55,342 nt of DNA. Origin: an uncultured Bacilli bacterium. Its GTDB lineage: Bacteria > Bacillota_I > Bacilli_A > RF39 > UBA660. Every line of letters starts with the position of its first letter. Positions within the stretch are counted from its first letter, which is position 1. This document shows, in pieces, positions 3,088-9,831 of the stretch. The notes under the pieces are model-generated. The model searched no databases. It saw nothing but the letters and a program-made list of their open reading frames with translations, and had not been told where the DNA came from. The stretch spans positions 1 to 55,342 of the forward strand of contig CANQIK010000004.1 in the NCBI GenBank assembly GCA_947624085.1, in the 5' to 3' direction. A program made the translations under genes and the position numbers.

Positions 3088-3220
3088 AGTTTGACCTCCA
3101 AAATATTAGATTTATTATACTACAACATTAATCAAAAGCAATAAATTTTAATCCTCAACATTGCCTACCCTTTTAATTTAATTATTTACTTGGAATATAT
3201 TTTAAAAGGAAGTGATTTTT

Positions 3221-3916
3221 TTGTTAGAAAGTATGGTCCTATTACTAAAAAATATGATGTGTTTTACAGGTAGTTATTCCAATAATGTCTTTTTAGAACC
3301 ATTATCTAAAGAAGAGGAAGATAAATATGTAGAACTCATGCTCCAAGGCGATATGGACGCACGAAATAAATTAATTGAGCATAATTTAAGATTGGTTGCT
3401 CATATAGTCAAAAAATTTGATAGTAAAGAAAAGATGACGGATGATTTAATATCGATTGGAACAATTGGCTTAATTAAAGGCATTGATACTTATAAAGATA
3501 ATAAGAAAACAAAAATTACAACTTATGCTGCAAGATGTATTCAAAACGAAATTCTTATGTATTTTAGAGCCAATCAGAAACGAAATAATGATGTATTTTT
3601 ATCAGATTCAATAGGTTATGATAAAGAAGGAAATGAAATAAGTCTAATTGATGTTCTTGAAGATAATACCGAAGATTATGTGGAAATAATAAATGAAAAA
3701 GATAATATTCAAATGTTAAAGAAATATTTAAATCTTTTAACGGATAAGGAAAAAGAAATTATTAAGAAAAGATATGGTTTAAATGGTGAAGATGAAAAAA
3801 CGCAAAAAGAGATAGCTAAAGAATTAAATATTTCGAGAAGTTATGTATCAAGGATTGAAAAAAGAGCATTAACGAAAATATTAAAAGAATTTGTGAAAGA
3901 CAAAAAAACATTGTAA
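3221..3916 (+). CDS. sigK: Sporulation-type RNA polymerase sigma factor, SigK-like
   Basis: GSYSNNVFLEPLSKEEEDKYVELM, IEHNLRLVAHIVKKF, DLISIGTIGLIKGI, ISRSYVSRIEKRAL resemble SigK; likely TTG start at 3221 after AAGGAAGTG; short hydrophobic N-terminus recalls the pro-sequence. Confidence 0.85.
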   Translation: MLESMVLLLKNMMCFTGSYSNNVFLEPLSKEEEDKYVELMLQGDMDARNKLIEHNLRLVAHIVKKFDSKEKMTDDLISIGTIGLIKGIDTYKDNKKTKITTYAARCIQNEILMYFRANQKRNNDVFLSDSIGYDKEGNEISLIDVLEDNTEDYVEIINEKDNIQMLKKYLNLLTDKEKEIIKKRYGLNGEDEKTQKEIAKELNISRSYVSRIEKRALTKILKEFVKDKKTL

Positions 3917-3962: not shown

Positions 3963-5018
3963 GTGGTTATGGAAAATATGGAAATTACGCAAGATACTAT
4001 CATTTATTATGATAAAGCAACAGGTAGAGTGTTGTCTCCAGAGGAATTAAGAGAAAAATGGAATATGGCTGTCTTAAATGGTGGTCATACTGATATTACT
4101 ATTGTATCTTCCCCTGCGAAAAACTTGATTATTGAAGATGGTATCGTAAAAGATAGAGTAAATCAAACTGTTGGCGATTTACTTGCCCAAAGTGCAAAAC
4201 AAAAAGCTGAAATGGATGCTCAAACTGCTGATTTTCAGTCTTTACTAAATTCTAGTGAAAAAGCGGAAAGTTCTTTAACAGATATTGATAATCCTGATTA
4301 TATTATTAATATTTTAGAAAATGCCAAATTAAAATCAAGCATGGATGACTACGCCCATATCGCAGACTCAAGTATTGCAGTTAAAGATGAACCTTTACCT
4401 TCATACGAAAGAATGGGCCAAAGAAAAAGCATTAAATACCCTAGTTTTACCAAAGGCTTAGTTAAAATTGCAACTGTTGCTACTATATTAGGAGTAAGTT
4501 TATCATTAGCAAATGTCGCAGCCCAAAATATATCTTCTACTAATAGATATAATTCTGCAGTTAAATATATTGAAGAACAATATGAAGAAGATGGCCGTAA
4601 TTTTGTAAATAGAAATAAACATATTATCGAAGGCTCCTTTGATTCTTATGGACACCCTATTTATTTTATTGATAATGAAGCGGTAGCCAAAGATATTCTT
4701 GCTGTACCAGATGAAGGATATCTAGGAGCTTTATATATGGCTTATGAGCAAATGGGAAATGACCGAGCAAATGGCGAATATGACAATTGGGATGATACCA
4801 TTGGTTTTATTGGTAGTTTAGTTGATGAAACTCATCCTAAGGCTTACTTAACTACCGCTGGTTGTAAAAGCTTTGATGAATTTTTAATTAAAGCCGGCTA
4901 TGTTGATGAAAAAAGTAAAGAGCCATCAGTAGAAATGTTTAAAACCGCGGGCAAACAAGCTGTTATCGATTTTGCTAATTTCTTGCAAGAAGATAATATT
5001 ACGGTAGGAGGAAGATAA
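3963..5018 (+). CDS. Hypothetical protein with one predicted TM segment
   Basis: Long ORF; hydrophobic stretch KIATVATILGVSLSLANVAA mid-protein; no family recognised. Confidence 0.7.
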   Translation: MVMENMEITQDTIIYYDKATGRVLSPEELREKWNMAVLNGGHTDITIVSSPAKNLIIEDGIVKDRVNQTVGDLLAQSAKQKAEMDAQTADFQSLLNSSEKAESSLTDIDNPDYIINILENAKLKSSMDDYAHIADSSIAVKDEPLPSYERMGQRKSIKYPSFTKGLVKIATVATILGVSLSLANVAAQNISSTNRYNSAVKYIEEQYEEDGRNFVNRNKHIIEGSFDSYGHPIYFIDNEAVAKDILAVPDEGYLGALYMAYEQMGNDRANGEYDNWDDTIGFIGSLVDETHPKAYLTTAGCKSFDEFLIKAGYVDEKSKEPSVEMFKTAGKQAVIDFANFLQEDNITVGGR

Positions 5019-5862: not shown

Positions 5863-6411
5863 TTATTTGTTGACAGCATCATCTAAATAGTTATCATCTA
5901 AATTATCAACATTTATATCTAATTCTTTTTCATCATCCGTATCATATAGTTCTTCATATTCATCAAAGTCATCTTCAACAGCAACTTTAACAGTCGTATT
6001 ACCGATAATTTCCACACCTAATTCTTTTTCAACTTGTAAATTAACATAACCATTTTCTATTTTAACATCAGTGACACTAGGTTGTTTTAAACACTCTACA
6101 ATAATTTCTGATCTATCATCAAGAGTCGAACCATTTTTTAAAGTAGCATTCATCATATCTGAATAGCTAAATTTCTTCGAACATACTCCTGTCTTAGTAT
6201 TGTTATCATATGAATACCAAACATTAACATCATATGAACCGCTTAGGTTAACTTTTCCTCCCGTGGCTGTACCACTGAAACTATGATTTATAACCCAACA
6301 GCCTAAAATGGTATCAGGCTTTTCATCACACTCAAGTTTAAATGAGGCCTTGTTTTTTTTCTTACATTTACCAATTATTGCTTTGGTAACTATTTCTTTA
6401 TAATTTGCCAT
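5863..6411 (-). CDS. cotE: Outer spore coat morphogenetic protein CotE-like
   Basis: YKEIVTKAIIGK, ILGCWVINHSFSG, GSYDVNVWYSYDNNTKT and acidic C-terminus align with B. subtilis CotE (YREIITKAVVAK, ILGGWIINHKY, GYYDINVWYSYADNTKT). Confidence 0.87.
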   Translation of the reverse strand: MANYKEIVTKAIIGKCKKKNKASFKLECDEKPDTILGCWVINHSFSGTATGGKVNLSGSYDVNVWYSYDNNTKTGVCSKKFSYSDMMNATLKNGSTLDDRSEIIVECLKQPSVTDVKIENGYVNLQVEKELGVEIIGNTTVKVAVEDDFDEYEELYDTDDEKELDINVDNLDDNYLDDAVNK

Positions 6412-8182: not shown

Positions 8183-8395
8183 TTAAAACAATTCCTGAAT
8201 TATGAAAATGCCAAAGCCAATGATAAAAAGCAATAATATTAAAACAATAATAATAAATTTAACATCAAACTTCTTTTTAGCTTTTTTATTAATGGGCTCT
8301 GCTGATATTTCTTCCTCTAAATTAATGGGATTTCCACACGCTGGGCAAATAACATCAGTAGAAGTTAAAGCTGTACCACATTTTGGACAATTCAT
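8183..8395 (-). CDS. Zinc-ribbon domain membrane protein
   Basis: CPKCGTAL...CPACGNPI plus C-terminal TM helix. Confidence 0.8.
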   Translation of the reverse strand: MNCPKCGTALTSTDVICPACGNPINLEEEISAEPINKKAKKKFDVKFIIIVLILLLFIIGFGIFIIQELF

Positions 8396-8448: not shown

Positions 8449-8470
8449 CAAAAAAAGAGGCAATGCCTCT
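8449..8470 (-). terminator. Rho-independent terminator of the micropeptide pair
   Basis: AGAGGCA-TTGCCTCT followed by TTTTTTT on minus; overlaps the stop of the 41-aa ORF. Confidence 0.75.
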
Positions 8471-8595
8471 TATATAACTACTCCTCCAATAATGATGGCT
8501 AATAGGATATAAAGGATTAATACGATGAAGAAATAATTATAAAAGCTATTATTATTGCCTTCATTACTAGAAGAATTATTTTTGCAACAGCTCAT
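8470..8595 (-). CDS. 41-aa tiny transmembrane protein, YjcZ-type (missing from ORF track)
   Basis: Translates MSCCKNNSSSNEGNNNSFYNYFFIVLILYILLAIIIGGVVI; AAGGAGGTAA SD immediately upstream. Confidence 0.75.
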   Translation of the reverse strand: MSCCKNNSSSNEGNNNSFYNYFFIVLILYILLAIIIGGVVI

Positions 8596-8608
8596 TTTAT
8601 TTACCTCC

Positions 8609-8704
8609 TTAGATATAAGCTCCCACGATTATTATAAGTAATATAAATAATACTAAAACAATCGCAGCGCCTACGCCAGTTGAACATGAATTTTGCATTT
8701 TCAT
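8609..8704 (-). CDS. 31-aa tiny transmembrane protein, YjcZ/SporV-type micropeptide (missing from ORF track)
   Basis: Translates MKMQNSCSTGVGAAIVLVLFILLIIIVGAYI; the VLVLFILLIIIVGAYI core is typical of the YjcZ tiny-TM family; AAAGGAGGA SD. Confidence 0.82.
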   Translation of the reverse strand: MKMQNSCSTGVGAAIVLVLFILLIIIVGAYI

Positions 8705-8829
8705 TCCTCCTTTTTCTATTCATAGTATTTAATGCGAAATTTTAAATAAGGTGCCATTTTCTTTTAAATTTCATTGTTTTTTAACGCTTATATTGTTATA
8801 ATAAGACTTATGGAGGAAATAAAAAAAAT

Positions 8830-9831
8830 ATGAAAAAGAAATTAGCAATTTTGGGTTTATGTACCCTTTTAGTAGCAGGTTGTGGTAAAGTACCTACCCT
8901 AAAAAATGGGGAGGAAGCTGTTGTAACATTTAAAAATGGGGATAAAATAAGTGTTGATGAGTTATATGAAACAATAAAGAATGATTTTGGTTTAAGTAGC
9001 TTAGTTACCTTAGTTGATTCTTATGTTTTAGAAAAAACTTTCCCTGATTATATTGATGTAGCTAAACAAAAAGCTGATGTTTATCTTCAGTCTGCTACCC
9101 AAGTATATGGTGTAGATGCTACAACCCTTGCCAATCAATATGGTTTTTCTACTGAAGAAGCTTTAAAAAATTACTTCTATCTAAATTATATGCAACAATA
9201 TGCTGAAGAGGAATACTCTAAAACCTTAATTGAGGATGATGATATTGAAAAATATTATGAAGAGGAAATTGTTGGCGATATTGAAGTAAGTCATATTTTA
9301 ATTACACCGGAAACAACAGACACTATGACTGATGAAGAAGTAGAAAATGCTGAAAAAACAGCTGAAGATAAAGCTAAAGAAATTTTAAGCAATCTTAAAA
9401 AAGCTGATAATTTAGAAGAAGCTTGGAAAGAAGCTGTTAAAGAAAATACTAAAGATGACGCTACTAAAGACAAAGATGGTTCATTAGGTAAGATTAACAA
9501 ATCTACTTTAGGAGATTCTTATAAAGAACTAGTTGATGCTGCTTATTCTACTAAAGATGGTTCATTATATGGTAGTGTTGTTAAAACCGAACTAGGATAT
9601 CATATTATTTATAAAACTAAATCTTATGATAAAGCTTCTTTAAAAGATTCTCGGGATAGTATTATTGAAACCCTTGCTTCTGACTTAAGAAATGATGATA
9701 CAACAATTTATATGCAAGCTTTACAACATTATCGTAATGAATTAGGCCTTGAGATTGTTGATGATGATCTTAAGAGCCAATATGCAGCTTATGTTCAAAA
9801 CGGCTTAACAGAAAGTAATTCAGAAGAATAA
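8830..9831 (+). CDS. prsA: PrsA-like foldase lipoprotein (parvulin peptidyl-prolyl isomerase)
   Basis: Lipobox LLVAGCGK; EVSHILI...GSLGKI...VVKTELGYHIIYK parvulin motifs. Confidence 0.92.
   Translation: MKKKLAILGLCTLLVAGCGKVPTLKNGEEAVVTFKNGDKISVDELYETIKNDFGLSSLVTLVDSYVLEKTFPDYIDVAKQKADVYLQSATQVYGVDATTLANQYGFSTEEALKNYFYLNYMQQYAEEEYSKTLIEDDDIEKYYEEEIVGDIEVSHILITPETTDTMTDEEVENAEKTAEDKAKEILSNLKKADNLEEAWKEAVKENTKDDATKDKDGSLGKINKSTLGDSYKELVDAAYSTKDGSLYGSVVKTELGYHIIYKTKSYDKASLKDSRDSIIETLASDLRNDDTTIYMQALQHYRNELGLEIVDDDLKSQYAAYVQNGLTESNSEE

Follow-up and report, generated by a model that had tools for sequence, protein, structure and literature searches.

Several groups of very small membrane proteins known from sporulating Bacilli resemble the gene pair described here. 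The YjcZ family (tiny_TM_bacill; TIGR01732 and PF09680) comprises tiny proteins that have a short Gly/Asn/Cys-rich N-terminus and a single transmembrane core with the pattern A-[IFL]-[IV]-LVLFILL-[IV]-II, and for which no function has been settled. SpoVM is a tiny membrane-associated spore protein of the mother cell, an amphipathic curvature-sensing helix that anchors SpoIVA. SscA of B. subtilis (formerly YhzE) is a protein of about 28 aa with a role in late mother-cell assembly of the spore coat. The sscA gene is listed among the spore coat genes (PMC12368082), and B. subtilis yjcZ has been assigned to the sigma-K regulon (Eichenberger et al., PMC517825).

In the window, the whole stretch of 55,342 nucleotides from an uncultured gut Bacilli bacterium (assembly GCA_947624085.1, contig CANQIK010000004.1) that was analysed here, a tandem pair of minus-strand genes very probably encodes overlooked spore-building parts of the YjcZ kind, since the pair is conserved, is preceded by a predicted sigma-K-type promoter and is absent from non-sporulating relatives. 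It shares with the YjcZ family the transmembrane core, the tiny size, the short N-terminus of similar composition and the occurrence in sporulating Bacilli; control by sigma-K, as of yjcZ, is predicted for the pair from its promoter. It differs from this family in its constant arrangement next to prsA as an operon of two genes that belong to distinct subfamilies, in the scores of the window’s own peptides, which fall below both curated cut-offs, and in peptide 2 having ILLAI in its core and an Asn/Cys-rich tail. Tiny size and a late mother-cell coat role, which for the pair is a proposal, liken it to SscA, and tiny size together with the predicted membrane association in the mother cell likens it to SpoVM; both likenesses are of description. 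In contrast to the amphipathic SpoVM, the cores of the pair are uniformly hydrophobic.

The gene pair and its expression signals

The genes and their signals are arranged as follows:

8609..8698, minus strand: peptide 1 gene, a tiny transmembrane peptide of 29 aa plus stop (from the ORF, the SD spacing and the orthologs)
8470..8595, minus strand: peptide 2 gene, 41 aa (from the ORF and its profile match to peptide 1)
8706..8712, minus strand: SD of peptide 1, AAGGAGG (from the sequence; kept in orthologs)
8604..8610, minus strand: SD of peptide 2, AAGGAGG (from the sequence; overlaps the peptide 1 stop codon)
8455..8471, minus strand: intrinsic terminator AAGAGGCATTGCCTCTT with a T-run (7-bp stem)

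The original prediction had placed two minus-strand ORFs of 31 and 41 aa here. Both are present and the second length is right, but the first ORF has 29 aa: its SD lies 7 nt from the ATG at 8698 and only 1 nt from the ATG at 8704, so that the 31-aa form starting at 8704 was rejected, and the start is very probably the second ATG (8698-8696). The 29-aa form reads MQNSCSTGVGAAIVLVLFILLIIIVGAYI; peptide 2 has an Asn/Cys-rich N-terminus followed by the transmembrane core FFIVLILYILLAIIIGG. The signals had been described correctly. A strong SD precedes each ORF (8712-8706 and 8610-8604), that of the second gene overlaps the stop codon of the first (8611-8609), and the two genes share a terminator at 8471-8455, which begins at the stop codon of peptide 2. 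Judged by their sequences, both ORFs are real genes, and their layout suggests that the two peptides are co-expressed.

On the minus strand, the ORF at 8183-8395 encodes 70 aa, with a zinc ribbon at the N-terminus and a hydrophobic helix at the C-terminus. It was considered as a third member of the operon and rejected, since it comes after the terminator and is preceded by an SD of its own. Moreover, the ORF, and in particular its zinc-ribbon part, was found in the two closest relatives only.

Conservation and coding constraint

Relatives of peptide 1 were found in 63 of the 98 related genomes searched, with orthologs in most genera of one Bacilli family, about 40 of which have kept the tandem pair. 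In nearly 30 of these genera the loci were read and contain the tandem pair with a strong SD for each ORF, while in about 13 further genera matches to both peptides lie side by side according to their coordinates. Within the genus, seven of the nine other members have peptide 1 orthologs that are 72-100% identical; as for the remaining two, the contig of G009 ends inside prsA, and G001 has no peptide 1. A prsA-neighbour search in a named collection showed prsA to be accompanied by at least one of the peptides in 33 of the 35 loci, 26 of which have both; some of the loci come from genomes already covered. The recurrence in related genomes, which had been suggested as a check, is seen in most of the relatives examined, with the SDs retained, and exceeds what chance would produce. 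The genomes that carry the pair come from metagenomes, often of animal gut or rumen, and bear the titles Bacilli, Tenericutes or Erysipelotrichaceae bacterium; they probably belong to an RF39-like order.

The expectation of purifying selection on both frames was borne out, the changes being mostly silent. Difference rates at codon positions 1, 2 and 3 are 0.145, 0.016 and 0.485 for core 1 and 0.268, 0.062 and 0.568 for core 2. The median dN/dS of the unsaturated pairs is about 0.05 for core 1 and about 0.10 for core 2 (dS was saturated in 26 of 120 and 38 of 66 pairs, respectively). The helices of both peptides are strictly conserved (LVLFILL and ILLAI), and the tails are short, variable and rich in Asn, Cys and Gly.

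Relationship to the YjcZ family

The YjcZ type, proposed originally from the pattern of the first peptide, could be supported by a less direct route than the suggested HMM search, which gave a divided outcome. Against the curated cut-offs of 21.35 bits (TIGR01732) and 21 bits (PF09680, YjcZ_2), peptide 1 of the window scored 10.5 and 11.8 bits, below both, and peptide 2 matched neither model. One ortholog from another genus exceeded both cut-offs (23.9 and 23.3 bits, respectively), and the other orthologs scored reached 12-20 bits. TIGR01732 is listed for all 23 peptide 1 orthologs, almost as the sole family, and for 14 of 33 peptide 2 members. After this scoring of orthologs, we dropped the reading of the low scores as non-membership. 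Since the window’s own peptides remain below the cut-offs, membership rests on the orthologs and on profile comparison.

The profile of peptide 1 matches that of peptide 2, and both peptides match YjcZ-type proteins of other Bacilli, the hhalign comparisons giving scores of 49.1 and 39.5. The reference alignment had eight rows; three of them were scored individually, and each passed at least one cut-off. Because hydrophobic helices resemble each other, the core columns of the target alignment were shuffled 200 times per comparison. The maxima obtained were 19.9 and 18.4, the real scores never being reached, and we therefore rejected the idea that hydrophobic composition alone produces the match. 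These comparisons point to a transmembrane core common to the pair and the YjcZ family beyond mere hydrophobicity, and suggest that the pair represents a branch of the YjcZ kind with a fixed two-gene arrangement, much of which the curated models miss.

The same genome has a 61-aa Gly/Tyr-rich YjcZ-like paralog on another contig (L057:2806-2991, G000:C3), which scored 15.8 of the 21 bits required by PF09680. Upstream of it lies a separate conserved stretch, resembling TATCTTATAATAGATACATA within the genus, which is not a clear sigma-K site. Only this paralog was accepted as true: the other matches in the genome were weak, and inspection of one of them, on C20, showed it to be opposite a 302-aa ORF.

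Predicted sigma-K-type promoter and genomic setting

Outside the operon itself, the following features of the window are of importance:

8750..8753, minus strand: predicted sigma-K promoter, -35 element CACC (conserved as MACM in orthologs)
8726..8734, minus strand: -10 element CATTAAATA of the same promoter (15-nt spacer to the -35 element; one mismatch to CATANNNTA)
8830..9831, plus strand: PrsA-like PPIase lipoprotein gene, divergent from the pair (Rotamase PF00639; synteny)
5863..6411, minus strand: cotE, outer spore coat protein E (PF10628, 161.2 bits, cut-off 25)
3212..3916, plus strand: sigK, sporulation sigma factor K, uninterrupted (TIGR02846, NF004471)

The motif MACM-N14-16-CATANNNTA, whose consensus letters we take to be of sigma-K type, occurs upstream of peptide 1 exactly in 26 of 36 orthologs and, with one mismatch allowed, in 34 of 36, the chance expectation under a first-order model being 0.4% and 7%, respectively. 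The site of the window, CACC-N15-CATTAAATA, has one mismatch to the consensus, and the two closest relatives have TACC instead of MACM at -35. On the reverse strand of the same stretches the exact motif was found in none of the 36, and among 2491 tiled windows of the same loci it was found in two. With both controls clean and a spacer of varying length, we do not attribute the motif to shared ancestry alone, although the relatives are non-independent. A spacing of 15 +/- 1 nt is characteristic of sigma-K promoters (Eichenberger et al., PMC517825). The pair is thus predicted to carry a conserved sigma-K-type promoter.

The sigK gene scored 304.6 bits with TIGR02846 (cut-off 298.65) and 317.3 bits with NF004471 (cut-off 252). 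Intact sigK and cotE are both located less than 6 kb from the pair, forming a late mother-cell neighbourhood. A 351-aa ORF on the plus strand just 3' of sigK (3963-5018) has no Pfam or NCBIfam match. The identified neighbours of the pair are ordinary chromosomal genes, with no autolysin identified among those scanned, and throughout the family the pair has prsA as its constant neighbour.

A promoter of the late mother-cell type, driving the joint production of two strongly hydrophobic single-span peptides with strictly conserved helices, might also be expected of a membrane-permeabilising system, for example a holin-like one, timed by sigma-K and aiding mother-cell lysis and spore release. However, the YjcZ relatives of other Bacilli have Gly/Tyr/Cys-rich tails more like coat material, and the gene found nearby is one for a coat protein, cotE, rather than for an autolysin. 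We consider such a lytic role improbable and prefer a role in building the spore.

Joint presence and absence with sporulation genes

Spore formation has been predicted for RF39, and its loss has occurred repeatedly in related lineages (PMC10868615). Of the 58 family genomes, the six without a sigK-grade match are all without a match to peptide 1 as well, and 51 of the 52 with sigK have a peptide 1 relative (Fisher P 1.7e-7, a value that overstates certainty because the relatives are non-independent); G009, with its truncated contig, is counted among the 51 on its paralog match only. G048 has sigK, cotE and spoIVA and no peptide 1 match, and its assembly also does not contain the prsA locus. 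The six genomes without sigK belong to six genera and are devoid of cotE and spoIVA as well. Outside the family, with matches accepted at E up to 1, 10 of 11 sigK genomes had a match versus 1 of 27 others, and this lone sigK-less match sits in a 302-aa frame. The joint pattern with sigK, spoIVA and cotE indicates that the pair is found in spore-forming Bacilli.

These data also bear on two alternative roles. The constancy of prsA beside the pair could suggest accessory membrane peptides that help the divergent PrsA-like foldase in growing cells, but all six sigK-less genomes retain a PrsA-like gene that stands without the pair, prsA and the pair are transcribed divergently, and the promoter of the pair is of sigma-K type; this possibility can hardly be given any weight. 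In G001, the member of the same genus that has no peptide 1, the capA-prsA-recX order is intact, and the stretch between capA and prsA, about 190 bp long, does not contain the pair. By their size and hydrophobicity the peptides also fit type I toxins, which are small hydrophobic membrane toxins silenced by antisense RNA, and the YhzE group of B. subtilis is listed among unconfirmed toxins of this type (PMC6562991). Such a role is disfavoured, and we hold it to be very improbable: one syntenic operon persists across the whole family and is absent together with sigK, a sigma-K-type promoter lies upstream, the identified neighbours are ordinary, and no Rfam match was obtained at the locus, although a novel antitoxin RNA would escape this search.

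Proposed role of the pair

We suggest as the likely explanation that the pair is a two-gene operon for late mother-cell spore membrane or coat proteins of the YjcZ/YhzE kind. Its link to sporulation is well supported at the sequence level. The ties to sigK and cotE consist of the promoter, the place and the joint absence; the original prediction contained neither the sigma-K-type promoter, nor the presence of sigK and cotE in the window, nor the joint loss with sporulation genes.

RNA polymerase with sigma-K, encoded 5 kb away, would transcribe the pair in the mother cell at a late stage. With their LVLFILL and ILLAI helices, both peptides would then be embedded, probably next to each other, in the membrane on the mother-cell side (the outer forespore membrane), and their exposed Asn/Cys/Gly-rich tails may help to assemble, anchor or cross-link the spore coat at this membrane. 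The pair would probably act at the contact between coat and membrane; its membrane side, partner proteins, coat role and biochemical role are inferred. A more far-reaching version, which seems to us rather unlikely, is that, in the outer forespore membrane, two diverged YjcZ subfamilies form an obligate two-peptide transmembrane unit with a defined structure, either a coat anchor or a pore, which constitutes a required late sporulation step in these small-genome gut bacteria.

This two-gene version, in genomes of about 1-1.2 Mb, is simpler to test than the many-copy sets found in other Bacilli, and for uncultured gut Bacilli the pair could serve as a compact marker of their capacity to form spores.

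Split sigK genes in related genomes

In G056, sigK is present as two same-strand halves about 6.9 kb apart (L123:385-8022; G056:C1:33184-40821), and a large ORF that by eye is serine-recombinase-like adjoins the 3' half, as in skin elements. In G047, from another genus, the sigK halves are on two contigs (L124:1431-1769 and L125:1156-1536) with a recombinase-like ORF beside the 3' half, which is probably another skin-like interruption. In G042, the 3' half of sigK occurs alone at the end of contig C25.
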